20,078 nt of DNA from a virus. The notes under the pieces are model-generated. The model searched no databases. It saw only the letters and a list, made by a program, of their open reading frames with translations, and had not been told where the DNA came from. Of the stretch, positions 1,030 to 20,078 are shown in pieces. A program made the translations under genes and the position numbers. The DNA is taken from positions 1-20,078 of IMG/VR virus record IMGVR_UViG_3300050011_000064. One strand, written 5' to 3'. Each line of letters starts with the position of its first letter. The first letter of the stretch is position 1.

Positions 1030-1198
1030 AGACCATCTGGCTGGGGGCGCACGAAGCGCATCCTTCGGTCCCATCAACGTCAAGCAATCCCTCTGGGACG
1101 CCGCATTCCCTCCAGAAAAACGGACTTCCAAACCTAAAGTTAGAAGATCGTCACGCACCATCGGGACTAACGGTGAGCGAACGAGGAGATCAAAATGA
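1022..1198 (+). CDS. Small basic hypothetical protein, 58 aa
   Basis: I do not recognise this protein. It is strongly basic in its C-terminal half, with a run of Lys/Arg residues around EKRTSKPKVRRSSRT, and may bind nucleic acid or an acidic partner. The frame is open from an earlier ATG at 992, but I prefer the ATG at 1022: it overlaps the stop of the upstream gene by 8 nt, as expected for coupled phage genes, whereas 992 lies deep in that gene without a ribosome-binding site. Its TGA overlaps the ATG of the next gene as ATGA (1195-1198). The ribosome-binding site of the next gene (GAGGAG, 1183-1188) lies inside this gene, which constrains its C-terminal sequence. Confidence 0.5.
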   Translation: MRKDHLAGGARSASFGPINVKQSLWDAAFPPEKRTSKPKVRRSSRTIGTNGERTRRSK

Positions 1199-2412
1199 GT
1201 GTAACGTTTTCTGATGCTGGTGTACGTGGTTCCTATCCAAGTTTCGTAGGTGGCGTTTCAGCCGCCGTACAAATTTTCCCTGCAATGCGCGGCACATCCT
1301 TCGCCAATGGCGGGGCCTTTGTTGCTGACGAATCTCAGGCGATCAATCCTGCTGCGGTAAGTACCAAGGCTGGAACCTCCGAAGGGCAGATTGTTAGTAT
1401 CCGTGCCGCTGGGTACGTGAACATGAGCGGTAGCTCCCCATCCCCCATCGATGCAATCTTGGGTGTGGCGAGTGCTTATGCGGTACTGGCGTACAGCGGT
1501 ATCACCAACACTGGCGCTCTCACCATCACAGGCAATATCGGTTCGTCTTCCGTCCCCGCCACTCTTAGTGGCATGACTCTCGTACCACCCTCCATTATCG
1601 ATAACGCAGGCGCAACCGCCGCACGATCAGCGGGTCAAATGGCCTACACTCACTATGCGGGATTGGTCTTCAGTAATCTTGGCGGCGGGCTAGTAGATTT
1701 GAGCACCGCAAACGGGTCAGGTGGAAATACCTACACCCCCGGCAATTACTCTGCGGGCTCGATGCACATGAGCACTGGCATTGTTTTGAATGGCGCGGGC
1801 GTTTACGTTTTCAAGGCAGCCAGCACCGTCAATCAGGACTCAGGTCAGGGCATGACTCTCAGCGGCGGGGCAACACTCGCCAACACGACCGTTGTTTGGC
1901 TCGTCGGCTCGTCCTTCAGTCAAAGCGGCGTCGGCGGTATCTTCATCGGAAACATCTTGGCTATCGCCTCTATTACCTTCGCTGGAACTGAGACCCTCAA
2001 GGGCCGCGCTCTGGCAATCGGTGGAGGTAACGGCGCTGTTACTTTTGCGGCAGGTGGATCGGTCACGATCAGCGATAGCGCGGGCAGCACCTTCATCATC
2101 AAGCTGTATCAGGGTAGCTCAATCAATCCAGCACTCAACGTTCTGGTTGGTTTCTCGGGCGCAATTCCCGCGACGGTTGATTCCTTCGCACTGACTTTGA
2201 CCGCGCAAGGCACCGCGCCTTCTGCCGTCATTCAGTTTGCCAACCCATCGCTGCTTGTAGATGGCGTGCCGACCACGTTCAATCTCGTGGGCGCGTCACT
2301 CGGCCCGTACAACTTATTGACAACCGACGTGCCGTATTGCATCGGTATTCAGTTCGGCACCAGCAACGCTGCGAACATTGCAGCCCTCCAGCAATTTTGT
2401 CTGGAGTCATAA
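1195..2412 (+). CDS. Probable virion surface protein with inserted DUF3494 (ice-binding-like) domain, 405 aa
   Basis: Residues 1-78 and about 286-405 match the 199-aa protein encoded just downstream (shared VGG, IFP/VFP, SIRAAG, LTLTAQ, VDGV-TTF, NLLTTDVP, QFGTSNAAN). Between them, about residues 86-285 read as a complete DUF3494 domain, the fold of type 1 ice-binding proteins. Visible hallmarks are LG-A--YAVLA with ITNTG and ITGNIG (89-116), the YTPGNY turn (180-185), GIVLNGAGVYVFKAAST (195-211), VVWLVGSS (233-240), FIGNILAIASIT (250-261) and LKGRALA with GAVTF (268-284). Such domains are beta-solenoids that bind ice or serve as adhesion modules. There is no signal peptide, which fits a virion protein rather than a secreted host antifreeze. 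The start has a strong site (GAGGAG, 1183-1188) and overlaps the previous stop as ATGA. The domain call is strong by pattern; ice binding and virion location are inferred. Confidence 0.8.
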   Translation: MSVTFSDAGVRGSYPSFVGGVSAAVQIFPAMRGTSFANGGAFVADESQAINPAAVSTKAGTSEGQIVSIRAAGYVNMSGSSPSPIDAILGVASAYAVLAYSGITNTGALTITGNIGSSSVPATLSGMTLVPPSIIDNAGATAARSAGQMAYTHYAGLVFSNLGGGLVDLSTANGSGGNTYTPGNYSAGSMHMSTGIVLNGAGVYVFKAASTVNQDSGQGMTLSGGATLANTTVVWLVGSSFSQSGVGGIFIGNILAIASITFAGTETLKGRALAIGGGNGAVTFAAGGSVTISDSAGSTFIIKLYQGSSINPALNVLVGFSGAIPATVDSFALTLTAQGTAPSAVIQFANPSLLVDGVPTTFNLVGASLGPYNLLTTDVPYCIGIQFGTSNAANIAALQQFCLES

Positions 2413-2578: not shown

Positions 2579-3178
2579 ATGAGTGTACTAAATTACGACA
2601 GTGGAGCGCGGGGCTTCGATCCCTCTCTCGTCGGCGGTCTCGGCACGGGCGTACTTGTATTCCCGAGCGTGATCGGACCCGGCTTTAACAACGGAGGCAA
2701 CTCCCTCGCCAACGCAAGCGTTGCGGTAAAGACTTGTGCAGCCATTGCCAAGTCCCCGTCTGCTGAAGGACTGATCCTCAGTATCCGAGCCGCAGGCAAC
2801 ATCACGCTTGGTGCGACTGGCACCGCGACCATCAGTTTGTATGAGGGCACTTCTCTGAAGGCAACCTCCGACACGCTGGTCGGTACTGGTACCTCAGCAT
2901 CACTCGCCGCTGGCTCTTACCCGTTCTACCTGACGCTCACGGCGCAAAGCTCCGCTCCCTCTGGTGTTATGCAGTTCGGCAACGCCCAACTGTACGTAGA
3001 CGGCGTGAGCACAACCTTTACGCTCAGCAACAGCGGCCTCTTCGGTCTCGCAGGCTCACCGCCAGTTGGCACCGTTAACCTTTTGACGACCGACGTGCCC
3101 TTTGCAATGGCTACCCAGTTCGGCACCAGCAACGCTGCGAATGTGGCGGCTCTCCAGATGTTTGTATTAGAGGGATAG
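2579..3178 (+). CDS. Probable virion surface/decoration protein, paralogue of the 405-aa protein, 199 aa
   Basis: This beta-rich, Gly/Ser/Thr-rich protein aligns along its whole length with the two ends of the upstream 405-aa protein, but lacks the DUF3494 insert. In the place of the insert it has a short loop (about residues 74-86). A stretch of 26 nt is identical between the two genes (2350-2375 and 3116-3141), encoding part of the shared QFGTSNAAN motif, which points to duplication or gene conversion. The C-terminal half (SYPFYLTLTAQ, VDGVSTTF, NLLTTDVP) looks like a small beta-sandwich typical of phage decoration or fibre-base proteins. The ribosome-binding site AAGGAG (2567-2572) lies 6 nt before the ATG. 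The exact particle role is not shown by the sequence. Confidence 0.75.
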   Translation: MSVLNYDSGARGFDPSLVGGLGTGVLVFPSVIGPGFNNGGNSLANASVAVKTCAAIAKSPSAEGLILSIRAAGNITLGATGTATISLYEGTSLKATSDTLVGTGTSASLAAGSYPFYLTLTAQSSAPSGVMQFGNAQLYVDGVSTTFTLSNSGLFGLAGSPPVGTVNLLTTDVPFAMATQFGTSNAANVAALQMFVLEG

Positions 3179-4534: not shown

Positions 4535-5282
4535 CAACCCATACACGATACTTTTCTCGGGTAGCATCAATCAACTGTCGGGCGTGGCACTTAGTCCACC
4601 TTCCGCATTCGGCACCGCTCCGTCACCATCAGGATCGCCTGCGACGACCGAGGTTGCTAATGTCAACGCAGCAATGATTGCTGTCTTCAGCGATCCTGTC
4701 CCCGTATTGGTCGCTGGTCAGCAGACTGAGCTACAGACCGATTCCACAGGAAGTCTGTTCGTCAACGCCACGGGCCGACTTGCGACTTATCATGCCCAGC
4801 AGAGCGCCTTCGTCCCATTGGCTGATCCAGTGGTTCCATTTTTCGTCTTGCAGGGCTCGGCAACAAAGACTATTCAACTACGCCACATAAAAATTACGTG
4901 GGCTTGTACGACTGGTAACTCAGCACCGTGCGTGTTGCGACTGAAGCGATACACGGTCATCAGCGGCGGCACACCTAACGCCGTAACCATAGGACCCAAC
5001 GACACATTGAATCCCGCAGCTACCGCAACCCTTAATCAGTATAGCGTGCTCCCGAGCACAGCAACGCCTTTCAACGCGGGTGCCTTAGCTTCTGAATATA
5101 TGGGTTGGACAACAAACGCCGCAGGCATCGTCGGACCCGTTCCGATTCAGTGGGACTTCGGCGTCAACAACGCGCAGGCATTGGTGCTAAGGGGCACATC
5201 AGATTACCTAGGAATGGAAATCTCGGCTGTCGCTGCTGGTGCACCGACCATGACCGTGTGTTGGACTTTCACAGAATCTTAA
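4524..5282 (+). CDS. Probable virion structural protein with TTG start, 252 aa
   Basis: The frame has a stop at 4518-4520, so TTG at 4524 is the first usable start. It is preceded by GAGGTGATCC (4514-4523), a long match to the extended anti-Shine-Dalgarno sequence with the GAGG core 6 nt away. The protein begins VNNPYTILFSGSINQ after the start region, has a Pro/Ser-rich linker (about 24-42), and a C-terminal beta-rich domain (about 115-252) including IKITWACTTGNSAPCVLRL, QWDFG and MTVCWTFTES. The final domain has the character of small beta-sandwich domains ending phage fibre-type proteins. No signal peptide or membrane segment is seen. It sits between the AP2 micro-ORF, which it overlaps, and the repeat-stalk protein. 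Role in the particle is inferred. Confidence 0.65.
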   Translation: MPVNNPYTILFSGSINQLSGVALSPPSAFGTAPSPSGSPATTEVANVNAAMIAVFSDPVPVLVAGQQTELQTDSTGSLFVNATGRLATYHAQQSAFVPLADPVVPFFVLQGSATKTIQLRHIKITWACTTGNSAPCVLRLKRYTVISGGTPNAVTIGPNDTLNPAATATLNQYSVLPSTATPFNAGALASEYMGWTTNAAGIVGPVPIQWDFGVNNAQALVLRGTSDYLGMEISAVAAGAPTMTVCWTFTES

Positions 5283-5296
5283 TGAGGAAAAAGTAA

Positions 5297-6901
5297 ATGG
5301 CTATTCAGCAGGTTGTGCCTATCTCGATTCTTTTGCTTGGCGACGGCGTGGCGACGGTGTTCGTCTTCGCATTGGGCGACCTGTATCAAATCTCGTCTGG
5401 CTCCGCTGTGCCTTACGGCAACCTTGGAGTGGTGCCATCCGCTGTTGCCCCAAGTAACAGCAACCCACCGGGAGCCATAAATATAATCCAGAGCGCGACC
5501 ATCGACGCGAATGGCAACATCACGGTCACATTAACTGAGCCGCTGCCTGCGGGGCAAATCGTAAACTATGTCCTGAACCTGCTATTCGACAGCGGTGACA
5601 CGTCGGTCTTCCCCCTTGTCCCACAGGTCTTTATCTCTGGAGCCACTACCTCAATCTCGGGATCACCAGCAATAGGGGCACTGAACGTCACCGAACTCAA
5701 TCCCTTCGACGGCGTAGTCTATCAGGGTAGTTCTCCGTGGATCGTTAGTGACCCGACTCTTGAGCAGATGAGTTTCACCGCCTCGGGTTCCCCTGCCCAG
5801 CAATCACTGAACGTCAACGTGACCAACCCGCTGACTGTGACCTTCACGGAAAGCTCGATTGGCGTCACACAAAATTCAACACCGTGGGTTGTGGGCGGTA
5901 CGGTTGCGGTTAGTAACTTTCCACTGACCATAGCTGTTAGTAACTTCCCCGCAACTCAGCCCGTATCTGGAACGTTTTGGCAATCCACACAACCTGTGAG
6001 CGGCACATTTTGGCAAGCAACTCAACCAGTGTCGGGAACCTTTTGGCAAACTACTCAGCCCGTATCTGGCACTGTGGCAGTGAGTAATTTTCCAGCAACT
6101 CAGCCTGTTTCTGGAACAGTCGCCATATCCAATCCATTTAACGGAGTTGTCAGCGGGACGGTAGCTGTCAGCAATTTTCCTGCATCTCAGGTCGTGACTC
6201 TCGCGTCTACGACTATCACAAACTTCCCAGCATCCGTCGCCGTTACGGGCACATTCTGGCCGACCACTCAGCCAGTGAGTGGGACTTTCTGGCAAGCAAC
6301 TCAACCCGTCAGCGGTACGGTTGCAGTGAGCAACCCCTTCAACGGGGCGGTAACAGGAACATTCTGGCAGGCTACTCAGCCAGTCAGCATTGCATCGATG
6401 CCATCGACTCCTGTCACTGGAACCTTTTGGCAGGCAACTCAGCCGATCAGCGGAGCCATCAGTTTCACCGCTCCACAGCATGTCATTACAGACACAGGAT
6501 CGGTCACGTCGCTGGGCAACACCACTGGCAAGACCCTCGTCATGAAGACCGCTACCACCACCACGACCGCCGCCACAGCGGATCAAGTTGTGCTCACGTA
6601 CACCGTCACAGCGGCTAAGACGTTCTACCTCGAGTACCTGCACATCACACCACGCCTGACTGTTGCGCCAAGCGGCGGCACAGCGGTTAACCCAGTGAAC
6701 ATTGGTTTCGTGAGCCTTGAGTCCCCCGCTGGGACGAAGCTCATCACGGTGAACTACGTAGGCCCACAAACGGAGCACGACACGATCACGTTTGCTGAGC
6801 CGATTCCAATCGCCGCAGGAGTAGTGGTCAGGGTGGTATGTACCCCCGATGCGGTCACGAGCACGCAGTGGTCAGCGAACTTCGGAGGCTATGAAAAGTA
6901 A
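5297..6901 (+). CDS. Probable tail-fibre/stalk protein with GTFWQ and GTVAVSN repeats, 534 aa
   Basis: Three regions are visible. Residues 1-200 form a beta-rich N-terminal part with a SGSPAQQSLNVNVTN segment (163-177) shared with the 258-aa protein. Residues 201-388 are a repeat stalk in which a module of about 11 residues, GTFWQ-TQPVS (seven GTFW copies), alternates with GTVAVSN-P modules (five copies). Residues 395-534 form a C-terminal beta-sandwich-like domain (TYTVTAAKTFYLEYLHI, TITFAEPIPIAAG). Alternating modules of this type are characteristic of phage fibre and stalk proteins and can change length by recombination between copies. The site GAGGA (5284-5288) precedes the ATG by 8 nt. 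The stop overlaps the next start as TAATG. Receptor binding by the C-terminal domain is an inference. Confidence 0.7.
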   Translation: MAIQQVVPISILLLGDGVATVFVFALGDLYQISSGSAVPYGNLGVVPSAVAPSNSNPPGAINIIQSATIDANGNITVTLTEPLPAGQIVNYVLNLLFDSGDTSVFPLVPQVFISGATTSISGSPAIGALNVTELNPFDGVVYQGSSPWIVSDPTLEQMSFTASGSPAQQSLNVNVTNPLTVTFTESSIGVTQNSTPWVVGGTVAVSNFPLTIAVSNFPATQPVSGTFWQSTQPVSGTFWQATQPVSGTFWQTTQPVSGTVAVSNFPATQPVSGTVAISNPFNGVVSGTVAVSNFPASQVVTLASTTITNFPASVAVTGTFWPTTQPVSGTFWQATQPVSGTVAVSNPFNGAVTGTFWQATQPVSIASMPSTPVTGTFWQATQPISGAISFTAPQHVITDTGSVTSLGNTTGKTLVMKTATTTTTAATADQVVLTYTVTAAKTFYLEYLHITPRLTVAPSGGTAVNPVNIGFVSLESPAGTKLITVNYVGPQTEHDTITFAEPIPIAAGVVVRVVCTPDAVTSTQWSANFGGYEK

Positions 6902-8376
6902 TGCCTCTACAGAATCCCCTCAGCTTCACGATGATTCAGCCGACAACCTTCTCGCCAATTGCGGGTCAGTTCCTCACTGGGTTTAACCAGACTACAGGAC
7001 TGTTCTCATCCTCGAGCATCCCGAGCGGCACCGTTACGTGGAATCAAATAGGAAGCGCAAACGGAAACCTCACCCTCAACAACGCCAACTTCACCACCAC
7101 GTTCAATCAAACATCGGCGGTACCGTGGGTTTGGGCAAATACTACCCCCGCGACCAACCCCGTTGGTCAGTCCTCTCCAATCCTCACCATTCAGGGACGT
7201 GTGTGGACGGCTGGTGCAGATACAGCGGATACGTGGACGATTCAAGACTTAGTAAGTACGACGAACGACCGAGTAGCCCTCACCGTCACGCACACATCGG
7301 GAGGCACGGCGGCTGGTACAGCAATGATACTCAAGCCGTCCGTTGGACCGATGGGCCTGTTCATAGCTGCTGATTCAACGGCTGGGGGCACGATTACCGC
7401 AAGCACGTTCCCATTAGGCACAGCCCTTGGTGTTATGGCGTCAACAGCAAATCCTCAAATATTACTCATGAACGGGCAAAACGATAGCCACCCAACAGGC
7501 GTGGTGCAGTGGATGGGGAGTGCCCAATCACGCTTATGGGGTATAGGCTCATTACAATACTGCTCTTCTGACCAGTTCGAGTTCTTCGGCGGCACGGGTG
7601 GAAACGTCAATCTCGGCAGTGCCATGATGACGTTTGCCAGAGCTACCGCGTACTGCGCTATCGGACGTGGACAATCAGGGACGTATGCATCTGGAACTAC
7701 GCTTACTGTGTTTGACCAACTGGCAACCACTGGCGCAACACAACTCCTGATACAAGGTGGAGCGGCTGACACTACATCCAACGTCGTGTTGCGGGTGAAT
7801 AAAGGCGGCACAACCACCGCGACATTCTCGGTATCGGCGTCAGGTCTTGTAACAGCATTCGAGTATCTCACCGCCGCCAGTGACTTCCTCACTGGTAATA
7901 TCCTACAGCTTGGAAACAGCGGATACCGCATAAGCGCAGGTGGTTTTAACAGTGCTTTTGGATTCTCGACGGGAATTGCCTTGCCCAGTAGTGCGGTAGT
8001 TAGCTGGAATGCTGACACTGGTATCTCCCGCACTGCGGCTGGAGTCCTCGCTATAGGAAATGGCGTGACAGGAAATGCTTCAGGAAACCTCAGTCTCAAC
8101 CGCATTAACAAAGGCGGTGTTGATTTCGCAGGACAAGCAACGATAACTGCGGGAGCTACGACCCAAGCGGTTGTGTTCGCGGCGAACTACGCGGGCACAG
8201 GGCAACCTGTGATCGTCTTGACTCCTACCTCCGATCCACTCGCTCTCGGTGCCCCCGTGGGGTATTGGGTGACTTACGCAGGAAGCGCAGGAGCGTGGAC
8301 GGGCTTCACCGTGAACATTCAGGCTGCGTTGGCGGGGAACGTGACTTTCAATTACCTGTGTGTAGGTCAGGCGTAA
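6901..8376 (+). CDS. Probable fibre or surface structural protein, 491 aa
   Basis: This is a long Gly/Thr/Ser/Ala-rich, beta-rich protein without signal peptide. The N-terminal 170 residues contain repeated Asn/Thr strand patterns (ANGNLTLNNANFTTTFNQT). The middle (about 175-300) includes QNDSHPTGVVQWMGSAQ and FGGTGGNVNLGSAMM. The rest has LRVNKGGTTTATFSVSASG and a final domain with VIVLTPTSDP and WTGFTVNIQAAL. The layout and composition resemble phage tail-fibre or tailspike bodies, in which RVNKGGTTTATFSVSA-type segments are common before a trimerising end. I see no autoproteolytic chaperone motif or enzyme active site. It is coupled to the repeat-stalk gene by a one-base TAATG overlap; GGAGG at 6884-6888 may act as the ribosome-binding site at 12 nt. 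Confidence 0.65.
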   Translation: MPLQNPLSFTMIQPTTFSPIAGQFLTGFNQTTGLFSSSSIPSGTVTWNQIGSANGNLTLNNANFTTTFNQTSAVPWVWANTTPATNPVGQSSPILTIQGRVWTAGADTADTWTIQDLVSTTNDRVALTVTHTSGGTAAGTAMILKPSVGPMGLFIAADSTAGGTITASTFPLGTALGVMASTANPQILLMNGQNDSHPTGVVQWMGSAQSRLWGIGSLQYCSSDQFEFFGGTGGNVNLGSAMMTFARATAYCAIGRGQSGTYASGTTLTVFDQLATTGATQLLIQGGAADTTSNVVLRVNKGGTTTATFSVSASGLVTAFEYLTAASDFLTGNILQLGNSGYRISAGGFNSAFGFSTGIALPSSAVVSWNADTGISRTAAGVLAIGNGVTGNASGNLSLNRINKGGVDFAGQATITAGATTQAVVFAANYAGTGQPVIVLTPTSDPLALGAPVGYWVTYAGSAGAWTGFTVNIQAALAGNVTFNYLCVGQA

Positions 8377-8385
8377 CTTTCAAAT

Positions 8386-8397
8386 TCCTGTACAGGA
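8386..8397. promoter_or_regulatory. Perfect 12-bp palindrome over a ribosome-binding site
   Basis: TCCTGTACAGGA is a perfect palindrome whose right half supplies most of the ribosome-binding site (ACAGGAG, 8392-8398) of the gene starting at 8405. It could be an operator, a dimerising RNA loop, or chance. As a palindrome without a loop it would not form a stable hairpin. Confidence 0.3.
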
Positions 8398-8404
8398 GTC
8401 AACA

Positions 8405-8965
8405 ATGGTTCAGTATATTACCCTCGGTTTCGCAATCCTCGCCGCAGTTTTGGCTGGTGTCACCCTCTACAAACAGCATACCAGCATGAAGAGTTTTCTC
8501 AAGACCTGTGATCCCTTCGCCAAAGCCACAGCAGATATTCAGATCGTAGCCGATGCCATCGCGGAGACGTTCCTCAAGAAAAGTGAACAAGCACTTGCCC
8601 AAGTCACGTCCGACATCCGAAACGTAGGCGTAGAAATTACGGAGACGTTCCTCAGCATGAGTGAACAGTCTCTCGCTAACACTACAGCCGATCTTCGAGC
8701 CGTGGGCGCGGACATCACGGAAGCCTTCCTCAAAAAATCAGAATGGTCTCTCGCCAAAGCGACAGCCGACATGCGAGTCATAGGTGCGGACATCACGGAA
8801 GCCGCCAAGAAAGCGTCCAAGACCGTCAACCGTCAGATTTGCTCGAAGTGCGGCAAGAAAAGTTGGGAGTTCAACGAATACGCGGACGACAGAATCATCT
8901 GTCTGAATTGTGAAAATAGGATGGTCACTGCGGAACGCGAAGCACAGGGTTCAGCAGCGCAATAA
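8405..8965 (+). CDS. Membrane-anchored 26-residue-repeat protein with C-terminal zinc ribbon, 186 aa
   Basis: Three parts are clear. Residues 3-22 form a hydrophobic helix (ITLGFAILAAVLAGVTLY), probably a single membrane anchor. Residues 40-143 are four 26-residue repeats (40-65, 66-91, 92-117, 118-143) on the pattern ATADIR-VGADITE-FLKKSEQ-LA, predicted as long amphipathic helices or coiled coil; the DNA repeats with the same 78-bp period. Residues 146-169 form a zinc ribbon, C146-x2-C149-x16-C166-x2-C169. The gene sits directly before the large terminase with its TAA touching that ATG, where many phages keep the small terminase, but it has no helix-turn-helix and has a membrane segment. A lysis, membrane or tape-like role is possible; I cannot assign one. 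Confidence 0.7.
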   Translation: MVQYITLGFAILAAVLAGVTLYKQHTSMKSFLKTCDPFAKATADIQIVADAIAETFLKKSEQALAQVTSDIRNVGVEITETFLSMSEQSLANTTADLRAVGADITEAFLKKSEWSLAKATADMRVIGADITEAAKKASKTVNRQICSKCGKKSWEFNEYADDRIICLNCENRMVTAEREAQGSAAQ

Positions 8966-10897
8966 ATGTTCCAGAACGCACAGAAAAAGCACTACACGAT
9001 AGGCGATGGTCTGTCCATGGGCAAGGGTGGGCTTGAAGAACAGGCATATCTCCGTTCCTATGTCTACAGCGAATGCCGCCCCCTCGATGACCTTGTTCCC
9101 CTCTGGAAAGAGTACCGCAAGTTTCACCACCACCACAATTTCGAAAAATGGCTTCTTGAACGAGACAAGATTCGCAAGTCTGTTTATGAGAACGGCATCG
9201 CTCTGGGCCATGATTTTGTCCCGCATGTCCACAAAGAGATGTGCGACATGTTCGTCGCCAAAAACTTCGACAACGTGTATCACGAGGGTTACACCCTCGG
9301 CGAAGTCCGTGCTGCAATCAACAAGCAAAACCGTGAAAAGGAAATGCTGTTGCTGGCTCCAAGAGGAGCATTTAAGAGCACCACCGATTGCGCGGATGCT
9401 TGTAACTGGCTCATCAATTGCCCCGATATTCGCATCTCCATTCTCTGCCCCGAATACAAACTGGCTGTGAAGTTTCTCAAGATGGTGAAGGGGTATTTCA
9501 ATAGGCCCGAGAACACCGACCCGACGTACTTCCAAGCCCTCTTCCCCGAGTACATGATAAGCGAAGTGGTCGATGGGGATGATGAAGACGACGAAGCGCC
9601 AAAGAAACGCGGTCGCAAAAAGAAGACGAAGAAAGATAACAGCGGTCAGACCAAGAGCCCACTGTTCTCACCCGCTCGGGTAATCCCCCAAGCTGGTGCA
9701 CCCTCGCTCTGGGTCAACTCCATCGCCGGCTCCCTGTCAGGCAATCACTGTGACGTTCTAAAGGGTGACGATATTGTCGATGACGAGAACTCGAACTCAG
9801 AAGTCACACGTGAAACCATCAGCACCAAATGGAACAACGCCCTAAATTTGGTGGACGAGTGGGGGTTCATAGACCAAATTGGGACCCGGTACTATACGGA
9901 CGACTTGTGGGGACAGCGTATCGCCATCATGGACGACAAGGACCATCCTGTTCCGATGAAGTTTTTGAAACGTGCCTGCTGGACAGTCAAGGCGGGATTC
10001 GAGGGGTTCTTGCTCAAGGAACTCAAGGAAGAGATGGTCGAACTTTACTTCCCCGAGAAGCTCACATTCATTGCCTGCCGCTACAAGCTTCTCCGCAACG
10101 AGCGTATTTTCCGCTGTCAGCAATTGAACGAGCCCGCGATGAGCGACGAGGAGTTAGTTCATTTCGACGAGACGGCAATGCGTCGGGCGCACATGCCGGG
10201 CGAGTTGGCTCCAGAAGGCACAATCTATATCTGCTGGGATACCAGCGCAGGGAGTAAGGGCGGGGATTTCAGTTGCGGTGCGGTGGGTAAAATCACCGAG
10301 CGCGGGGAACTGTTCAACATCGAGAATGTGTACGGTAAGTGGAAGCACAGCCAGCTTGCACAGGAAGTTGTGAAGCTCGGCATGAAATGGCCGCAAGCTA
10401 AGTGCATCCTGATAGAGGATTTTGTCGGGAGTGAGCTATTCAAGAGGGAAGTCAACAATATCGCCATGCAGCACGGGGTGACCCTCCCCATCATGTATCA
10501 CCAACCTCCACCGGGGGCGGATGCCAAAAGAAACCGAATCAAAGGTCTGGAAATCCTGCTCACGAATGGGTTGCTGTTTTTCGCCAACGGTTGGTGGACT
10601 GACGAACTGATGAAACAGTTCACGAAGTACACAGGCGAAAAGAGCAGCCGCCGCCACGACGACATCCCAGATGCTATCGCCTACCTCCAGCTATTTTTGC
10701 CATCTCCCGACTACAGCACCTCGGAATACGCCAAGCTCAAGAAAGCCGCTGAAGAGAAGGCACTGGCTGATGGTTTTGCGGGTCACATCTTCGGGGCACC
10801 CAGCCCGCCAATGGTGGAAGTTGAGACCGAGGATTATGCCCCAGTTTCACTGAACGATAGGTACTTCGGGGGTAACGGTATCAAGATCTTCTCATAA
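8966..10897 (+). CDS. terL: Terminase large subunit (DNA-packaging ATPase/nuclease), 643 aa
   Basis: This is the motor that pumps phage DNA into the prohead and cuts it. The ATPase domain shows a variant Walker A, APRGAFKST (131-139), and a Walker B region, HCDVLKGDDIVDD (261-273). The RNase H-like nuclease domain shows the three acidic motifs: ICWDTSAGSKGGD (422-434, D425), ILIEDFVGSE (481-490, D485) and RHDDIPDAIAY (563-573, D565/D566). Total length is usual to slightly long. A charged insert lies in the ATPase domain, acidic (203-210) and then lysine/arginine-rich (213-223). The ATG directly follows the upstream TAA without a strong ribosome-binding site, so translation is probably coupled. 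The portal gene follows after a 38-nt gap, the normal order. Confidence 0.93.
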   Translation: MFQNAQKKHYTIGDGLSMGKGGLEEQAYLRSYVYSECRPLDDLVPLWKEYRKFHHHHNFEKWLLERDKIRKSVYENGIALGHDFVPHVHKEMCDMFVAKNFDNVYHEGYTLGEVRAAINKQNREKEMLLLAPRGAFKSTTDCADACNWLINCPDIRISILCPEYKLAVKFLKMVKGYFNRPENTDPTYFQALFPEYMISEVVDGDDEDDEAPKKRGRKKKTKKDNSGQTKSPLFSPARVIPQAGAPSLWVNSIAGSLSGNHCDVLKGDDIVDDENSNSEVTRETISTKWNNALNLVDEWGFIDQIGTRYYTDDLWGQRIAIMDDKDHPVPMKFLKRACWTVKAGFEGFLLKELKEEMVELYFPEKLTFIACRYKLLRNERIFRCQQLNEPAMSDEELVHFDETAMRRAHMPGELAPEGTIYICWDTSAGSKGGDFSCGAVGKITERGELFNIENVYGKWKHSQLAQEVVKLGMKWPQAKCILIEDFVGSELFKREVNNIAMQHGVTLPIMYHQPPPGADAKRNRIKGLEILLTNGLLFFANGWWTDELMKQFTKYTGEKSSRRHDDIPDAIAYLQLFLPSPDYSTSEYAKLKKAAEEKALADGFAGHIFGAPSPPMVEVETEDYAPVSLNDRYFGGNGIKIFS

Positions 10898-10910
10898 AAA
10901 GGTGACTAGG

Positions 10911-10931
10911 GGGTTCTTAAACAGAGAACCC
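10911..10931 (+). promoter_or_regulatory. Hairpin just before the portal start codon
   Basis: GGGTTCT (10911-10917) and AGAACCC (10925-10931) form a perfect 7-bp stem with a 7-nt loop (TAAACAG), ending 4 nt before the portal ATG. No good ribosome-binding site exists elsewhere in the gap; the only purine run, AGAGAA (10923-10928), is partly in the stem. There is no following T-run, so it is not a standard terminator. It may limit portal translation. Confidence 0.45.
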
Positions 10932-10935
10932 AACA

Positions 10936-13020
10936 ATGGAACCTACCAAAGCAGACTTACTCCCCGAAGAGATAAACGCAGAGGACGCCAAGAAATCCCC
11001 CATGGGGTCCATGTTGTACCCAGACCCCCAAGCATTGCAACTCGTTTTAGACGACCTCGATAAGTGCGATGCGTTTATGACGATTTCGATGTGGGCATCG
11101 AATTGGGCCTTATCCGATGTTCTGATCCAATCCCCGCAGAATACCAACATGGGGAGCAACGGCACCTGCACCAACATCCCCGATTTTACCTTGAGCAATG
11201 CAATTTCGGCTATTCAGCCAAAGCTCATGGAGAGCCTCTTCTACGAAGACCCGCCATTCTTACTTCGTCCTCGTCCGGGCACATCGCAAGACATAGTAAG
11301 GGCAAAAACGGCCCTCTTCGCTGCCCAGTTGACCGAGATGAAGTTCGAGACCCAATGTGAGCGCCTGTTTGCTCAAATGGCGCTCCTTGGGACTTGCATT
11401 GCCAAGTACGGTTGGACGGAAAAGACCGAAACGAAGAAAGTCTACTCCGCAAAAGCCGAGCCCGAGAAAATCACTTCTCCCACAGGCTTCGTGAGCACCA
11501 TTCACACGCCTGATTCCGATGAAATTGTCTGGGAGTACGAAGAGACGAAAAAGTATTGCCCATGGCTGAAGTTTGTTGACCGTCGCACCATCCGTGTAGA
11601 CCCCGGCTGCCGTGTGGGCGACATTCAGGAAGCCAAGTACGTCATCGAAACACAATACCCGAATTATCACGAGCTTGATGACCTACGGGAGATGCCCGAT
11701 TACGACGTTCCGAGCGAAAGCGTACTAAGAGAGTTCTTTGAGCGCGAAGAAGGCGCAATGGTGCCGGGTGACAACCTCACCATGACACTTCCAGAAGGCA
11801 TGAGGGGCTGGTTGCAACATGCGGTGCCTCGTAATCACAAGACCACATCCGATCCATTGGAAACGCCACTATTGCTCATCGAGCGTCAGGACAAATACAG
11901 CATTATTACTGTGCTCGTTCACGGTGCGGACTACATTCTCATTCGCAACTCTGAGAATCCTGCCTGCAAAATCACGTACTTCAGCGCGAACTGGCGTGAT
12001 CTTCCTGACTGTTTCGACGGTCAGGGACTTGGACAGCTTATTGGTGCGGAACAAATCCGCATTCAGGGTACCAAGAACCTCGCCACGGACATCTTGGCTT
12101 ATGGCTTGCACCCTCAGGCGGTTCGTAAAAAGGGTTTCAACACACCGACTCAATCCATCATCTGGAAACAGGGCGGCATCATCGACGTTGACGACGACGT
12201 TGACAAAGCATTCAAATTTTTGCAGTTCCCAGCTATTCCCGCCGAAGCTTGGCAGTATGTTAGCGAAGCCAAAGCCACGGCTGAAGAGACCTCGGGTGCG
12301 AACCAGCAAACCACAATGGGCGCTGGAGCACAGGGCGTCAAGACCACAGGTATGCGCTCGGGCACGGGTGCTGCGGCAGTGGTACAAGCTAACGCTAGTC
12401 GCTTGGATAATCCTATCGGCAGATTCATTCGTCAGATTTTTGTCCCCTTCCTGTACGAGCTTGATCAGATGAACAATCAGTTCTTACCGTCATCCGCTCT
12501 TCGCATGATCTTGGATGAGACTTCGGCAAAGGGATTGGAAATCGATCAGAAGGAATTCCGCAACGCCCAGCTTGAGTACGAAGTGTTAGCTGGAGCGCAC
12601 TTAGGTCCAAAAAAAGAAATGGCGCAATTTATGCCGTTCATTCTCCAGATCGCCAACAACCCCGTCCTCATGCAGGCCGCAGCAGATCAGGGATTGAATT
12701 TCCAATTTGATGCATTCTTCAAGATTTTCTGCGACCTTGCGGGCTTCAAATACAGTCAGCAATTCTTCTCCCCACAGACGGCAGCGCAGAAACAGAAGTC
12801 CGATGCCAACAGTCCCGCAGCCATGGCAGCCGCCAAGCAACAAGGCGCACAGTCAGCACAGACGGCTCAATTCAGTCATGAGCAGCAGATGGAAGACCAG
12901 AAGCAGATTGGCAAGGCTGCCAACCAAGTGCTGCGTCAAACACTGGAGCACGCCACGGAGACCGAAGCAAATACGGGAGAGCCCGGCAACGTCGGATTTG
13001 GAAGCCAAACGACTGGGTAG
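10936..13020 (+). CDS. Portal protein (head-tail connector), 694 aa
   Basis: The portal forms the ring at the capsid vertex through which DNA enters and leaves. The call rests on position directly after the large terminase, on length (in the range of podovirus-type portals) and on sequence character. There is an N-terminal helical region with IQPKLMESLFYEDPPFLLRP (about 93-112), a central region rich in Asp/Tyr/Trp, and a C-terminal region with the Gly/Thr-rich TSGANQQTTMGAGAQGVKTT, followed by RLDNPIGRFIRQIFVPFLYEL. The last 80 residues are Gln/Ala-rich and helical (KQQGAQSAQTAQFSHEQQME), like the barrel helices of long portals. A hairpin lies just before the start codon. No enzyme motif is seen. 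Confidence 0.82.
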   Translation: MEPTKADLLPEEINAEDAKKSPMGSMLYPDPQALQLVLDDLDKCDAFMTISMWASNWALSDVLIQSPQNTNMGSNGTCTNIPDFTLSNAISAIQPKLMESLFYEDPPFLLRPRPGTSQDIVRAKTALFAAQLTEMKFETQCERLFAQMALLGTCIAKYGWTEKTETKKVYSAKAEPEKITSPTGFVSTIHTPDSDEIVWEYEETKKYCPWLKFVDRRTIRVDPGCRVGDIQEAKYVIETQYPNYHELDDLREMPDYDVPSESVLREFFEREEGAMVPGDNLTMTLPEGMRGWLQHAVPRNHKTTSDPLETPLLLIERQDKYSIITVLVHGADYILIRNSENPACKITYFSANWRDLPDCFDGQGLGQLIGAEQIRIQGTKNLATDILAYGLHPQAVRKKGFNTPTQSIIWKQGGIIDVDDDVDKAFKFLQFPAIPAEAWQYVSEAKATAEETSGANQQTTMGAGAQGVKTTGMRSGTGAAAVVQANASRLDNPIGRFIRQIFVPFLYELDQMNNQFLPSSALRMILDETSAKGLEIDQKEFRNAQLEYEVLAGAHLGPKKEMAQFMPFILQIANNPVLMQAAADQGLNFQFDAFFKIFCDLAGFKYSQQFFSPQTAAQKQKSDANSPAAMAAAKQQGAQSAQTAQFSHEQQMEDQKQIGKAANQVLRQTLEHATETEANTGEPGNVGFGSQTTG

Positions 13021-13099
13021 CAACTCCAGTATTACTAAATATGAATCAACTTATAGGGCAGGTCGAAAGACTACAGGGTAATTAGATAGGAACACAACA

Positions 13100-13441
13100 A
13101 TGACAGACAAACCAAAACCCTCCACACTTTCCCTTCATGAACGCCAAGAATTAGCTTCCCTCGCCATGCACGGCGGCTGGGCTGTCTTGCAGCGTTTGAT
13201 GGAACGCAGAGTAAGTTTCGCAACCGTCGCTATCTTGAAAGTAAGCCCCACCGATCCCGACCGAGCACAAAAGATCAGCAACCTACAAGCCATCGCCTAC
13301 GCCCAAAACGAATTTTGCCAAGACATTTTCAACGATGTGAACTGGCAGATAGCCGCCCTCAGCGTCAATGACGAGGGTGAGCCAGAAGTATCACCCGCAC
13401 TAATCAAAGCTGGGTATTACAGACATGACACTCGCCAGTAA
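13100..13441 (+). CDS. Small hypothetical protein between portal and scaffold, 113 aa
   Basis: I do not recognise a family. The protein is soluble and mainly helical, with LSLHERQELASLAMHGGWAVLQRLMERRV near the start and a later NLQAIAYAQNEFCQDIFNDV helix. It has one cysteine and no membrane segment. The ribosome-binding site TAGGAA (13087-13092) lies 7 nt before the ATG. Position between the portal and the putative scaffold suggests a head-assembly accessory, but the sequence does not show this directly. The upstream gap (13021-13099) holds no other gene that I can support. Confidence 0.65.
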   Translation: MTDKPKPSTLSLHERQELASLAMHGGWAVLQRLMERRVSFATVAILKVSPTDPDRAQKISNLQAIAYAQNEFCQDIFNDVNWQIAALSVNDEGEPEVSPALIKAGYYRHDTRQ

Positions 13442-13480
13442 GAAGGCTAAAGCCAAGTATCGGAAAAGAGGAGTATAACA

Positions 13481-14230
13481 ATGGAAACCCAAGAACAACA
13501 TGCTAAGTTCGTCCAGTCATACCAAGTCACCGATGAAGAGGGTAACCCCATCGGCAGACCCACCATTTTGCAGGCGCAAACCGCTGAAGAGATGTTTGAC
13601 AAAATGCGTGAGGCTAACATCGCCGTCACACGTGCTCTCAACCGTCAAAACAAAGCTCTCATAGACCTAAAGTCTCGCAAAATCACTCCATTACCCGCGC
13701 CAAAAGCCCCCCCAGTTACCCCGGAGGAGAAATCTGCGGACTTCGAGAACCGTTTACAGGTAGCCGAGGCGAAAGCCCGAGGCGCAGAACTCAGCGCCAT
13801 GACCTACAGATTTTGTATGCGTCACAAGTTTGACTTCTACCCATGTCAAGCAAATAGTGACGTAGTTTTCGGATGGTTAGCGGCCAATAGCCTCGAAACC
13901 ACCGACGACAACTTGGAGATAGCTTTCTACAACGTCGAAGCGACGTTGGCAAAAGACCCCAAGGAAGTAGTAAACAATGTTGAACCCACAAATGATCTTC
14001 CTACCAATGATCCTCCCACCAATGAACCACCTGTGCCGACAGTGAAGCGGCAGCCTAGTTTTGGGATTCAACCCAACACGGGTTCAGGACACAGACCCAC
14101 AGGCGGACCTGCGGGGATGACGAAAAAAGACGTTTACGAGCTACTCAGAAAGAATCCAGTTGAGTACAAAAAGCGACTGCGCGATCCGAAGAAAAAAGCG
14201 GAACTGGATGCAGCGTTGGCTCGGGGCTAA
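13481..14230 (+). CDS. Probable capsid scaffolding protein, 249 aa
   Basis: The call rests on position immediately before the major capsid gene and on composition. The protein is hydrophilic, Lys/Glu/Pro/Asn-rich, with helical segments (35-66 and 84-108), a Pro-rich linker (70-82), three copies of a five-residue PTND/EP repeat (169-184), a Gly/Pro-rich hinge (195-212), and a strongly basic C-terminal helix (215-249, KKDVYELLRKNPVEYKKRLR). A basic C-terminal helix that binds the capsid protein is typical of phage scaffolds. An FCMRHKFDFYPCQ segment (111-123) with two Cys and one His is unusual for a scaffold. The site AGAGGAG (13467-13473) is strong. An internal head protein is the main alternative. 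Confidence 0.65.
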   Translation: METQEQHAKFVQSYQVTDEEGNPIGRPTILQAQTAEEMFDKMREANIAVTRALNRQNKALIDLKSRKITPLPAPKAPPVTPEEKSADFENRLQVAEAKARGAELSAMTYRFCMRHKFDFYPCQANSDVVFGWLAANSLETTDDNLEIAFYNVEATLAKDPKEVVNNVEPTNDLPTNDPPTNEPPVPTVKRQPSFGIQPNTGSGHRPTGGPAGMTKKDVYELLRKNPVEYKKRLRDPKKKAELDAALARG

Positions 14231-14254: not shown

Positions 14255-15298
14255 ATGGCTGGAAATCCTTCAGCGGCAAACGTAGGAAACGTTCTCACCT
14301 CTCAAGCGATCATGTTCGATAGCGAACTGATCCCAAACTTGAAGGGGCAGACGAACGCCTTCGTTGTAGCGGCACAGCGCCGTGTACAGAAACTCAACTC
14401 AGGTATTAACCGCAGCATGTTCCAATACGAAACCCTCTCGGCTTCGCTTGGACAGGTCACAGATGGCTGTGTCGGGAATTCTGAGTTCGTCGGTCAAATC
14501 ACCACGCCTGCCCAATGCGGCGAGTGGAATAATTTTGGTAACTTTAGCGCCATGTCGGTGGCTTCGGCCGTTGATGAACTCGTCGGCAACTCTGCCGTCG
14601 AAGGCGGGTACCAAGCCGGGCAGACGATCAGCGAACTGTATTCGAGCACGCTCGATAACACAGTCAACGTTGACTCCGCTGTCAGCTTGAACTACCTCCT
14701 TCCAATTGCTGGAAGCTACACGCTCGATCTCGCGACGTTCCGTACCATGAAGAACAGCTTGGTCGGTATCGATGTACTGCCCTGCAAGGAAGACCTGTAT
14801 TACGCTCAGATGCACCCGAACGTCTTGAACGACATCGTAAATTCCACGACCGTTAATGACAGCATTAGCGATTTTTGGAAGCATACGGAAAGCGGCAACA
14901 AGAAGTTCGAGGAAGTCGGCGGATACACTCAGCTTCGTCCGTTGGAAATCGGCCCCGGCACTGACACACGAGTCTATTTGACTCCGTTTGTCACCCAGAC
15001 GCCCAATGCCTACAACACGGGGAAGATTGCTTTCCGTACCTACTGCGAAGGTCTTTACAGCCATATTGGTATTTGGCTGGAAGTACCCGGCGACACCGAC
15101 CTCGGTGATGGTGATTGGCGAACGATTGAATGCGGCGTGGTTGATAACGCTCCGTCTTCGGTCTATGACCCAACCGCAACCATCGGTGCTTGGTGGTGGT
15201 ACCGGTTCCATCAAGTGGTCGTAACTCCGTCCAATGGTGGACAGGCTGCCAACACTCAGCGCGTGCGCGTTGTGGACACGATCCCAACTTTGCAATAG
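14255..15298 (+). CDS. Major capsid protein (HK97-type fold presumed), 347 aa
   Basis: This is the shell-forming protein, called from gene order (terminase, portal, scaffold-like, then this), length and sequence character. It starts MAGNPSAANVGNVLTSQAI, has no signal peptide, and mixes helical and beta segments as HK97-fold proteins do: AVDELVGNSAVEGGYQAGQT in the likely spine-helix region, YAQMHPNVLNDIV in the middle, and a C-terminal AWWWYRFHQVVVTPSNG before a short beta end. The ribosome-binding site AGGAG (14244-14248), 6 nt before the ATG, is among the best in the window, fitting a highly expressed product. The gene is followed at once by a strong terminator. No sequence motif alone proves the fold. 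Confidence 0.8.
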   Translation: MAGNPSAANVGNVLTSQAIMFDSELIPNLKGQTNAFVVAAQRRVQKLNSGINRSMFQYETLSASLGQVTDGCVGNSEFVGQITTPAQCGEWNNFGNFSAMSVASAVDELVGNSAVEGGYQAGQTISELYSSTLDNTVNVDSAVSLNYLLPIAGSYTLDLATFRTMKNSLVGIDVLPCKEDLYYAQMHPNVLNDIVNSTTVNDSISDFWKHTESGNKKFEEVGGYTQLRPLEIGPGTDTRVYLTPFVTQTPNAYNTGKIAFRTYCEGLYSHIGIWLEVPGDTDLGDGDWRTIECGVVDNAPSSVYDPTATIGAWWWYRFHQVVVTPSNGGQAANTQRVRVVDTIPTLQ

Positions 15299-15321: not shown

Positions 15322-15359
15322 CCCTCTAGTGAGTATTAGCTCACTAGAGGGTTCTTTTT
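15322..15359 (+). terminator. Strong intrinsic terminator after the major capsid gene
   Basis: A perfect 12-bp stem CCCTCTAGTGAG/CTCACTAGAGGG (15322-15333/15340-15351) with a 6-nt loop TATTAG is followed by TTCTTTTT. This is a textbook rho-independent terminator and would raise capsid transcripts relative to downstream genes. Its 3' arm (AGAGGG, 15346-15351) is also the only ribosome-binding site for the homing endonuclease that starts in the T-run. Confidence 0.93.
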
Positions 15360-16002
15360 GTTCATCTATCTGATCGTCAACCACATCACCGGGAAGTATT
15401 ACATCGGTCAACACAAAGGCAACAACCTGAAGAAATATCTTCAGACTAAGCTGTCGGACGCAAAGAAGAATCGCGGCGGTAAGTCGCACTTATTTGCTTC
15501 CATGCGGCTGCACGGTAAGACAGCCTTCACCATCCACGCTTTGCTTTCTGACATTCAGACCAAAGCTGAGTTAGACCAGCTTGAAAAAGAGTTCATCGCT
15601 TTCCTTAAGTCCAGAGACCACGAGTTTGGTTACAACATCTGTCGCGGTGGTGAGGGTGGAAACGGTCCCGGCAAAGGCAACACGAACGGACGCGGCGGCA
15701 AAGGTAGGAAACACTCAGAAGAGACTCTTCAGAAAATCAGTGAGTCACGCAAGGGTAAGTGCCTTGGCAACCAACACACACTCGGCCTCAAGCATACCGA
15801 AGAGTGGAAAGCGGCAATGAGCAAGAGAGCCTTGGGCGTCCACCAAGAAGGTCACAGCACCGATGAAGTTCGCCTCCATTTGAGTCTCTCCCACATGGGC
15901 AATAAGCCTACTGAAGAAACCAAGCGCAAGATGAGGGAGGGTCAGAAGAGGGCGTGGATTCAAAGAAGACTTTCAAAGCCCTCTATAGGCACCCAACAAT
16001 GA
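15358..16002 (+). CDS. GIY-YIG homing endonuclease with NUMOD3 repeats, TTG start, 214 aa
   Basis: Homing endonucleases of this group cut DNA lacking their own gene and spread by repair. The N-terminal nuclease domain shows IYLIVN (3-8), YYIGQ (14-18), an SMRLHG segment with candidate catalytic Arg50, an ELDQLEKEFI helix with the candidate metal-binding Glu (71-80), and GYNICRGGEGG (91-101). Three NUMOD3 DNA-binding repeats follow (about 113-134, 141-160, 180-198), with KHSEETLQKISESRKGK, KHTEEWKAAMSKRALG and PTEETKRKMREGQKRAW. The domain begins at residue 2, so TTG at 15358 must be the start; AGAGGG (15346-15351) lies 6 nt upstream, inside the terminator stem. The frame is complete, and its TGA overlaps the next ATG as ATGA. 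It interrupts the usual capsid-to-adaptor order. Confidence 0.9.
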   Translation: MFIYLIVNHITGKYYIGQHKGNNLKKYLQTKLSDAKKNRGGKSHLFASMRLHGKTAFTIHALLSDIQTKAELDQLEKEFIAFLKSRDHEFGYNICRGGEGGNGPGKGNTNGRGGKGRKHSEETLQKISESRKGKCLGNQHTLGLKHTEEWKAAMSKRALGVHQEGHSTDEVRLHLSLSHMGNKPTEETKRKMREGQKRAWIQRRLSKPSIGTQQ

Positions 16003-18401: not shown

Positions 18402-18455
18402 TTGGGAGACAGCGTAGCTGGACTTCTCAAAGCAATCGAGTACCTGAAATTATGA
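18402..18455 (+). CDS. Possible 17-aa leader peptide
   Basis: A TTG start (18402) with a strong ribosome-binding site AAAGGAG (18387-18393, 8 nt away) opens a 17-codon frame, GDSVAGLLKAIEYLKL after the start. Its TGA overlaps the ATG of the adaptor gene at 18452 as ATGA. The adaptor gene has no ribosome-binding site of its own, so translation of this peptide may deliver ribosomes to it. The peptide is short, helical and amphipathic. It could instead be a remnant of a longer gene. Confidence 0.4.
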   Translation: MGDSVAGLLKAIEYLKL

Positions 18456-19189
18456 GCTACTTACTCAGTCAATCTATCGTTTACTCCCAATCGTTCATTG
18501 CCGACCTGCTCCCCACGGTATACGCGGGGTCTGAACCTGCGCTCAGCTTTGCTCGAATGATTGTCAGTCTGATTCTCAATCCTCCCTTCACGTGGGCTTT
18601 TAATCGTGATTTCTACACCATCACTTTGGTGCAGGGACAACAGGATTACACGGAAGTCATTCCCGGCTTTGGATTCTTGGAAAAGGTCAGCATCTATAAC
18701 CCATCGGATGGCAGCATCTTCGAGATGGAGAATGTCTACAACAATCATGCGTTAGGTGAAACGTCACAACAGAGCCGTCCTGATGCTATATCCGTGCAGT
18801 ACACGGGCACGAGCGGTAGCCCAGCGGTGCCTGACATTACTTTTCGCTTCCTGAATGCTCCCGACCAAGTGTATGAGGCGAGGCTCCAGTTCCAGAAAGC
18901 CCCAACCTTCTTCACCGTCACTACGCAGGACTGGTTCCTTCAGTGCGGCCTACCAGAAAGCTTCATCGACATCTACAACGCCTTGTTTGTTGCGGAAGCT
19001 CTCGCATTCGCAATTGACGAACGCTCCGTTCAGTATCGTCAACGTGGGATGGCAGCCCTCCTTTCAAAATCGGAAGGTCTGTCTGAAATGCAAAAGAGTG
19101 AAATCCTCGGACAGTATCTCCAGAATGATTTGCAGACGCTCGTCAATCAACTCAAGGCTCAACAGGCAGCGCAAGCGCGGGTGGTGTAA
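18452..19189 (+). CDS. Head-tail adaptor-like protein, 245 aa
   Basis: The protein has an N-terminal helical segment (1-45), a FTWAFNRDFYTITLVQGQQDY region (46-66), a beta-rich middle (VSIYNPSDGSIFEMENV, VPDITFRFL), and a long helical C-terminal half (RLQFQKAPTFF, PESFIDIYNALFVAEALAF, RQRGMAALLSKSEGLSEMQKSEIL). The helical bundle plus beta hairpin layout and the gene order fit the adaptor or tail-tubular-A class that extends the portal ring in podoviruses. It is related in pattern to the 364-aa protein upstream but lacks the inserted module. The ATG has no ribosome-binding site and overlaps the stop of a possible 17-codon leader. The TAA is followed directly by the GTG of the next gene. Confidence 0.65.
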   Translation: MSYLLSQSIVYSQSFIADLLPTVYAGSEPALSFARMIVSLILNPPFTWAFNRDFYTITLVQGQQDYTEVIPGFGFLEKVSIYNPSDGSIFEMENVYNNHALGETSQQSRPDAISVQYTGTSGSPAVPDITFRFLNAPDQVYEARLQFQKAPTFFTVTTQDWFLQCGLPESFIDIYNALFVAEALAFAIDERSVQYRQRGMAALLSKSEGLSEMQKSEILGQYLQNDLQTLVNQLKAQQAAQARVV

Positions 19190-20078
19190 GTGGGTCTCCT
19201 AAAAACATTCGGGGCAATGATTAGCAATCTCAAAGGCCCCAAGTTCACAACACTGTTCCAAGACCGCACCCTCAAAGGTCTGTACACCCAGCGTGCAGTT
19301 TTTCACGACTCGACGGATGTCATCACCTCGAAATATTACGGTGGTGCGCCCGATGCGCTGTGGCAAAGCGGCTCAGGCGGCACTCTCACCAGCATCAACA
19401 CAGAGCTTACGAACGAGCTAACACTTGCCCGTGCTTACGGGACGAGCCAATGGACAACCGCCACTTACCCATCTCCCCCGCTCCGTGCCTTCAGTTTCCA
19501 GCTTCAGGACGGCAGCATCCAAGTCCTCATCGACACTGAGACAGCGGTCTATCTCGATTACCAAGGCTTTGTCGGCGGCTCCCCGCCTGTAGACAAAGAA
19601 CTGATTTTCACCAAGAGCGCAGGGGCAGGTGAAACCTATTTCATCGCTGTCGGCGACGTAGTTTACATGGGCAATGGCGTTGACGTTATCAAGTACACGC
19701 CGGGTAACCCGAATGGCATCGAGTGGCTCTGGGGAATCGCCGCGCCCTCAGTGCAACCAACAGTAGTGGTCACGGCGAGTGGTGCAGCAGCCGTAGCATG
19801 GCAAGCAAGTACCGCATGGACGACGATGGGACTCGTGGTAGACCCAAATGGAAACGTTCAGCAACTCTACTCGGTCAATGCGAACGCCCTCAACACGACA
19901 AACTTTGGCACATCATCCAATGGATCGCCAAATTTCAACACCGCGACTGGCGCTACGACCGTTGATGGGTCTGTAACTTGGACTTGCCAAGGACCAATCA
20001 CCCTCTGGCTTCCAAACACGCTTTATCAGTTTGGCTCACCGATCTATGATCCCGCCACTAACTCGATCTTTATCCAAG
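19190..20078 (+). CDS. Tail hub / tail-tubular-B-like protein, partial (right end missing)
   Basis: An open frame begins with GTG right after the upstream TAA and continues, without stop, off the window edge (296 codons seen). The ATG at 19217 is an alternative start; neither has a clear ribosome-binding site, so coupling is likely. The N-terminus contains FQDRTLKGLYTQRAVFHD, KYYGGAPDALWQSGSG and NELTLARAYGTSQW, a pattern I associate with large tail-hub or nozzle proteins that follow adaptors in podovirus-like phages. Around codons 205-270 a module with VVDPNGNVQQLYSV and GATTVDGSVTWTCQGP appears, and a further one seems to start (LWLPNTLYQFGSPIYDP). The same module type is inserted in the 364-aa adaptor-like protein. 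The missing end prevents a firm call. Confidence 0.6.
   Translation, partial: MGLLKTFGAMISNLKGPKFTTLFQDRTLKGLYTQRAVFHDSTDVITSKYYGGAPDALWQSGSGGTLTSINTELTNELTLARAYGTSQWTTATYPSPPLRAFSFQLQDGSIQVLIDTETAVYLDYQGFVGGSPPVDKELIFTKSAGAGETYFIAVGDVVYMGNGVDVIKYTPGNPNGIEWLWGIAAPSVQPTVVVTASGAAAVAWQASTAWTTMGLVVDPNGNVQQLYSVNANALNTTNFGTSSNGSPNFNTATGATTVDGSVTWTCQGPITLWLPNTLYQFGSPIYDPATNSIFIQ

Follow-up and report, generated by a model that had tools for sequence, protein, structure and literature searches.

The window analysed here is one whole virus record, a 20-kb contig of 20,078 nucleotides. On its plus strand, beginning with ATG at 1195 and preceded by a Shine-Dalgarno-like GAGGAG read from the sequence at 1183–1188, a gene at 1195–2412 encodes a 405-aa protein with an inserted DUF3494 domain. 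The domain occupies residues 83–290 (1441–2064, plus strand) between an N-terminal scaffold of residues 1–77 (1195–1425, plus strand) and a C-terminal scaffold of residues 292–405 (2068–2412, plus strand). A 199-aa paralogue without the domain, representing an empty site, is encoded on the same strand at 2579–3178, and both genes of the pair have strong ribosome sites. A long, very stable hairpin at 2417–2505 (z = −5.2 for 2410–2575) lies in the intergenic region of the pair; it has no match in Rfam and is a candidate terminator or processing element. Elsewhere, a convincing gene was not seen in positions 1–840 at the left contig end, and a 534-aa protein encoded at 5297–6901, with 'TQPVSGTFWQ' repeats and a 33-bp tandem repeat at 5969–6057, is likely a fibrous virion protein. 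Family matches on the plus strand identify the terminase large subunit (8966–10897), the portal protein (10936–13020) and the major capsid protein (14255–15298), and a GIY-YIG homing endonuclease with a NUMOD3 motif lies at 15358–16002, in the space that separates the capsid gene from the following one. Toward the right end, also on the plus strand, a 245-aa head-tail adaptor-like protein without DUF3494 (18452–19189, weak SU10_adaptor match) is followed by a tail/decoration-type protein recognised by homology (19190–20077) that is cut by the contig end.

DUF3494 is taken as a cellular marker of ice binding. The original prediction had recognised hallmarks of this domain at about residues 86–285. 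The PF11999 (Ice_binding) profile matches the 405-aa protein at residues 97–283 with E = 7.9e-18 and 65.3 bits, compared with a curated cut-off of 28.7 bits, and the match is nearly full length, covering profile positions 1–201 of 208. When the entire record is searched in six frames with PF11999, a single place, 1483–2046, is returned, and the 405-aa protein has no match in Pfam and PHROGs besides PF11999. The best solved structure by sequence is 6eio (E = 6.6e-15, residues 88–285). An AlphaFold2 model based on the window sequence and viral relatives has pLDDT mostly 80–97 in blocks across residues 81–290 and mostly below 50 in the flanks; it predicts a beta-solenoid with the elements of the DUF3494 fold, namely strands and an alpha-helix at residues 140–155 (1612–1659, plus strand). 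Foldseek aligns the domain model with 6eio at E = 1.5e-10, and VIA gives Z scores of 27.3 and 25.9 against 7bwx and 6eio (residues 83–297 and 83–299, respectively) and of 23–27 with rmsd of about 2 against a series of DUF3494 structures. Residues 83–297 are a real DUF3494/PF11999 domain, chance is excluded, and the boundaries first proposed are corrected to approximately 83–297 by structure. The predicted absence of a signal peptide is borne out as well, as a heuristic check of the sequence finds no N-terminal hydrophobic signal segment in the 405-aa protein.

That the flanks resemble a neighbouring phage protein without the domain, as had also been claimed, is confirmed by alignment with the 199-aa neighbour. 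Residues 1–77 are 44% identical to it (E = 1e-15), and residues 252–404 are 44% identical (E = 4e-29), a value that rises to 54% when the alignment is trimmed to residues 292–405. Because both flanks match a paralogue that lacks the domain, the alignments identify the DUF3494 domain of the 405-aa protein as an insertion. A very low-confidence model of the neighbour (pLDDT 36) places the insertion point at a turn from one strand to another; the fold of the flank scaffold is not predictable at this AlphaFold2 pLDDT of 36. No matching family was found for the flanks or the paralogue in PHROG and Pfam, single-protein scans of IMG/VR returned no close relatives of either protein, and an IMG/VR scan with the flank alignment matched no other virus contig.

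The nearest isolate is the podovirus Tunturi_3 (PP885686), with 33% identity in the portal, 34% in the capsid and 26% in the terminase. In Tunturi_3 the homologues of the terminase, portal, capsid and tail genes, further genes of the tail region among them, follow the same order as in the window, whereas PF11999 has no match in the whole Tunturi_3 genome. Tunturi_3 infects Tunturiibacter psychrotolerans, an acidobacterium from Arctic tundra in Finland (PMC11924767), and since the nearest isolate has this host, the window phage probably has an acidobacterial host as well; the phage itself derives from uncultured, probably cold-soil, bacteria. A closer, syntenic relative is contig L005 (capsid 76% and portal 75% identical), which starts inside the terminase gene and does not cover the region of the 405-aa protein. 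The capsid coding region is split into two blocks in contigs L009, L010, L041, and L042, which may reflect an intron or an insertion at that place.

The original prediction proposed a search of viral genomes for like insertions, and such insertions are indeed found inside sheath, Baseplate_J and adaptor proteins of other uncultured phages. A DUF3494 alignment finds 12 viral loci in IMG/VR, and a closer phage-type alignment finds 53. Tail sheath proteins belonging to several PHROG families carry the domain (L023, L055, L063, L053), as do Baseplate_J proteins (L011, with two copies, and L061) and a tail-spike-type protein of L006 with a weak match to K1-lyase_C (C-terminal). The baseplate J-like protein of L011, at 5202–13961, is 2919 aa long and contains both domains. 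In homologues of the window adaptor gene 18452–19189, a DUF3494 segment parts the protein into two halves (685 aa in L028 and 924 aa in L035), whereas the adaptor gene is uninterrupted by DUF3494 in the window, L005, Tunturi_3, and others. In related phages the domain also occurs in the post-capsid gene (L009, L041, L050) and upstream of the terminase (L026, L046), and whole-record searches find up to six places in one 223-kb virus. The homologue of the cut gene 19190–20077 in L047 is far longer and has DUF3494 near its C-terminus, and for this reason the window phage may carry a second copy there; in L048 it is the corresponding protein, of 1776 aa, that carries the domain. By heuristic checks, a hydrophobic N-terminal segment is present in 69 of 87 bacterial DUF3494 proteins, and among viral carriers clear signal peptides are present only in L008 and L016.

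Searches outside these contigs were negative. With three DUF3494 queries, tblastn of 50,697 cultured phage records found none. The phage-type alignment gave 122 pattern matches in 84,980 bacterial and archaeal species genomes, none of which was confirmed; this bacterial absence comes from a single pattern scan, and the viral scan used partly different patterns, so that rare provirus copies may exist.

In several tail sheaths the domain is rearranged. The sheath proteins of L055, L057/L059, and L063 match the PF11999 profile in the order 49/51–198, then a short linker, then 2/4 onward, the cleanest case being L055 (51–198, then 4–52), and another protein of the L055 record shows the same permuted order. 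In the corresponding genes (L055:7344–10112, L057:7158–10091, L063:2272–5025) the C-terminal part comes first and the N-terminal part follows. The permutants begin just before the helix equivalent to residues 140–155 of the 405-aa protein. As read from profile order, the DUF3494 domain of these sheath proteins is a circular permutant, opened before this helix with the original termini joined. To our knowledge, circular permutation of DUF3494 in phage sheaths has no prior report.

In a maximum-likelihood tree, whose bacterial rows were gathered with a different pattern from that of the bacterial-genome scan, the window domain falls within three nested sets made up of viruses only, which hold 28, 29, and 32 rows and have supports of 98/96, 100/98, and 97/87, respectively (the bootstrap being not fully converged). 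It is a divergent member of this clade, only about 50% identical to it. A further seven viral rows are placed among bacterial rows, so the acquisition of DUF3494 by viruses was probably not a single event. The domains of L009 (post-capsid gene) and L028 (adaptor gene) are 78% identical although the two genes are non-homologous and the portals of the two phages are only 33% identical, and by this comparison the module moves between virion genes. Where the same gene carries the domain, in L009 and L050, the portals are 67% identical and the domains 64%. Across these pairs domain similarity does not track phage relatedness.

The putative ice-binding b-face of the 405-aa protein was assigned by alignment from the face positions of TisAFP7 (PMC7966756) and comprises the outward residues T211/N213, S240/S242, S259/T261, and A281/T283 (1825–2043, plus strand). 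In alignment order the residues at these inferred face positions are A/S/S/T and T/T/S/N; 6eio has the same residue at seven of the eight, and the eighth is N instead of T. At the eight putative outward positions T, S, A, G, or N accounts for 96% of virus-clade residues and 94% of bacterial ones, and the clade is nearly uncharged (K 0.3%, R 0.8%). On the basis of this face and composition, a flat, regular binding face is predicted to be kept in the virus clade. It fits ice without proving ice binding, because DUF3494 ice sites have no conserved motif (PMC7966756) and because the same solenoid is inserted in ComZ, a competence pilin of Thermus thermophilus that binds DNA and is a proposed tip receptor (PMC6561018).

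We consider it fairly likely that the 405-aa protein carries an exchangeable binding or attachment module displayed on the virion. As the domain-bearing member of a duplicated pair, it would be an accessory protein of the virion that received a DUF3494 beta-solenoid in a loop following residue 77. This module would be drawn from a virus-only DUF3494 lineage exchanged among different virion genes and would be displayed outside the particle, where its flat Thr/Ser-rich face could serve as a rigid binding platform that aids attachment, most likely to the host surface or an extracellular polymer and possibly to ice. Display on the particle, as first predicted, holds for the module as a class, for which it is strongly supported by the insertions in sheath, baseplate, and adaptor proteins; for this copy the prediction stands less firmly, as the flanks of the 405-aa protein match no known structural family and its place in the virion is presumed. 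Among the roles originally suggested (binding of ice, mineral, or host surface, or action as a spacer), the comparative data favor a general display or binding module, with ice a possible ligand.

A passive role as rigid spacer or stabilizer, in which the solenoid has no ligand and only lengthens, cements, or shields virion proteins, would suit the nearly uncharged composition and the occurrence of the domain in very different scaffolds, sheath included, and extra sheath domains have been proposed to stabilize tails (PMC9230969). However, the putative face residues are kept despite the divergence of the window domain from its clade, and one lineage is re-used and exchanged, which together suggest selection for a surface property; a purely passive role is therefore possible but unlikely. 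True ice binding, in which the virion DUF3494 adsorbs to ice or limits recrystallization and so protects the particle or keeps it in the liquid veins of frozen soil where bacteria live, also appears doubtful. The PF11999 match, the fold, the near identity of the face to that of 6eio, and the tundra host of the nearest cultured relative all agree with it, but the b-face residues are common to DUF3494 generally and so do not discriminate, ComZ uses the fold without ice, and sequence matches of the Tunturi phages include tropical soils (PMC11924767). Still more speculative, and offered as a conjecture that we think unlikely to hold in full, is a wider proposal that cold-soil phages own a distinct DUF3494 lineage. 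They would shuffle it, circularly permuted forms included, among genes associated with the capsid, adaptor, sheath, and baseplate, which would let their virions bind to ice, or to surfaces associated with it, and ride or survive freeze-thaw.

A function as an auxiliary protein for cryoprotection of the infected host, the interpretation given to PF11999 genes reported from Arctic seawater virus contigs (PMC11515562), would fit the carriers L008 and L016, which have signal peptides. It is quite improbable for the 405-aa protein, which has no signal peptide and has the geometry of a scaffold with an insertion, and whose relatives in the clade lie within sheath, baseplate, and adaptor proteins. 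Although the contig is metagenomic, an error of assembly or annotation, or the fusion of a piece of a host gene to the phage, can practically be dismissed, given the single open frame with its own ribosome site, the GC and GC3 of the domain, which are similar to those of the rest of the phage, the paralogue flanks on both sides, and insertions of this type in many independent virus contigs; host-gene or chimera origin is rejected on the GC/GC3 and the flanks.

If the module is displayed on the virion as we favor, DUF3494 would be a mobile virion module of uncultured phages, and many viral annotations of cryoprotection would need re-reading. Natural insertions and circular permutants of the DUF3494 solenoid are now available, a testable question is raised about phage survival or attachment in frozen soils, and experiments are feasible with Tunturi-type phages and acidobacterial hosts in culture. 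A literature search found no paper combining DUF3494 and phage; as far as found, the DUF3494 domain and promiscuous display domains are each known already, and what is new is a virus-owned DUF3494 lineage used in this way.

Four known systems bear on this interpretation. Type 1 ice-binding proteins (6eio, 7bwx, and FfIBP 4nu2) share with the module the PF11999 family, the fold, and the Thr/Ser ladder of the b-face, but they are mostly secreted and cellular, whereas the window domain belongs to a phage protein without a signal peptide and to a virus-only clade. The PF11999 auxiliary genes of Arctic vOTUs are likewise encoded by environmental viruses but were read as host cryoprotection, whereas the gene architecture in the window points to virion parts (PMC11515562). 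In ComZ (6qvi; PMC6561018) a DUF3494-like solenoid (VIA Z 14.1 to the model) is likewise placed between strands of a surface filament protein; ComZ differs in being a DNA-binding type IV pilin with a longer, irregular solenoid and only 8% identity. The Ig-like domains that occur as insertions within phage virion proteins (Fraser 2006, as cited in PMC9230969) are analogous in mode of use, being promiscuous and exchangeable in tail and sheath proteins and present or absent among close homologues, and promiscuous insertion, empty sites, and exchange between genes are all found for the DUF3494 module. A study in which 112 sheath proteins were modelled names additional domains of the Ig-like type but none of an ice-binding or solenoid type (PMC9230969). 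The Ig-like domains are Ig sandwiches, whereas the window module is a beta-solenoid in which no Ig fold is found, and it would thus provide a second fold, beside the Ig-like one, for promiscuous display domains on phages.
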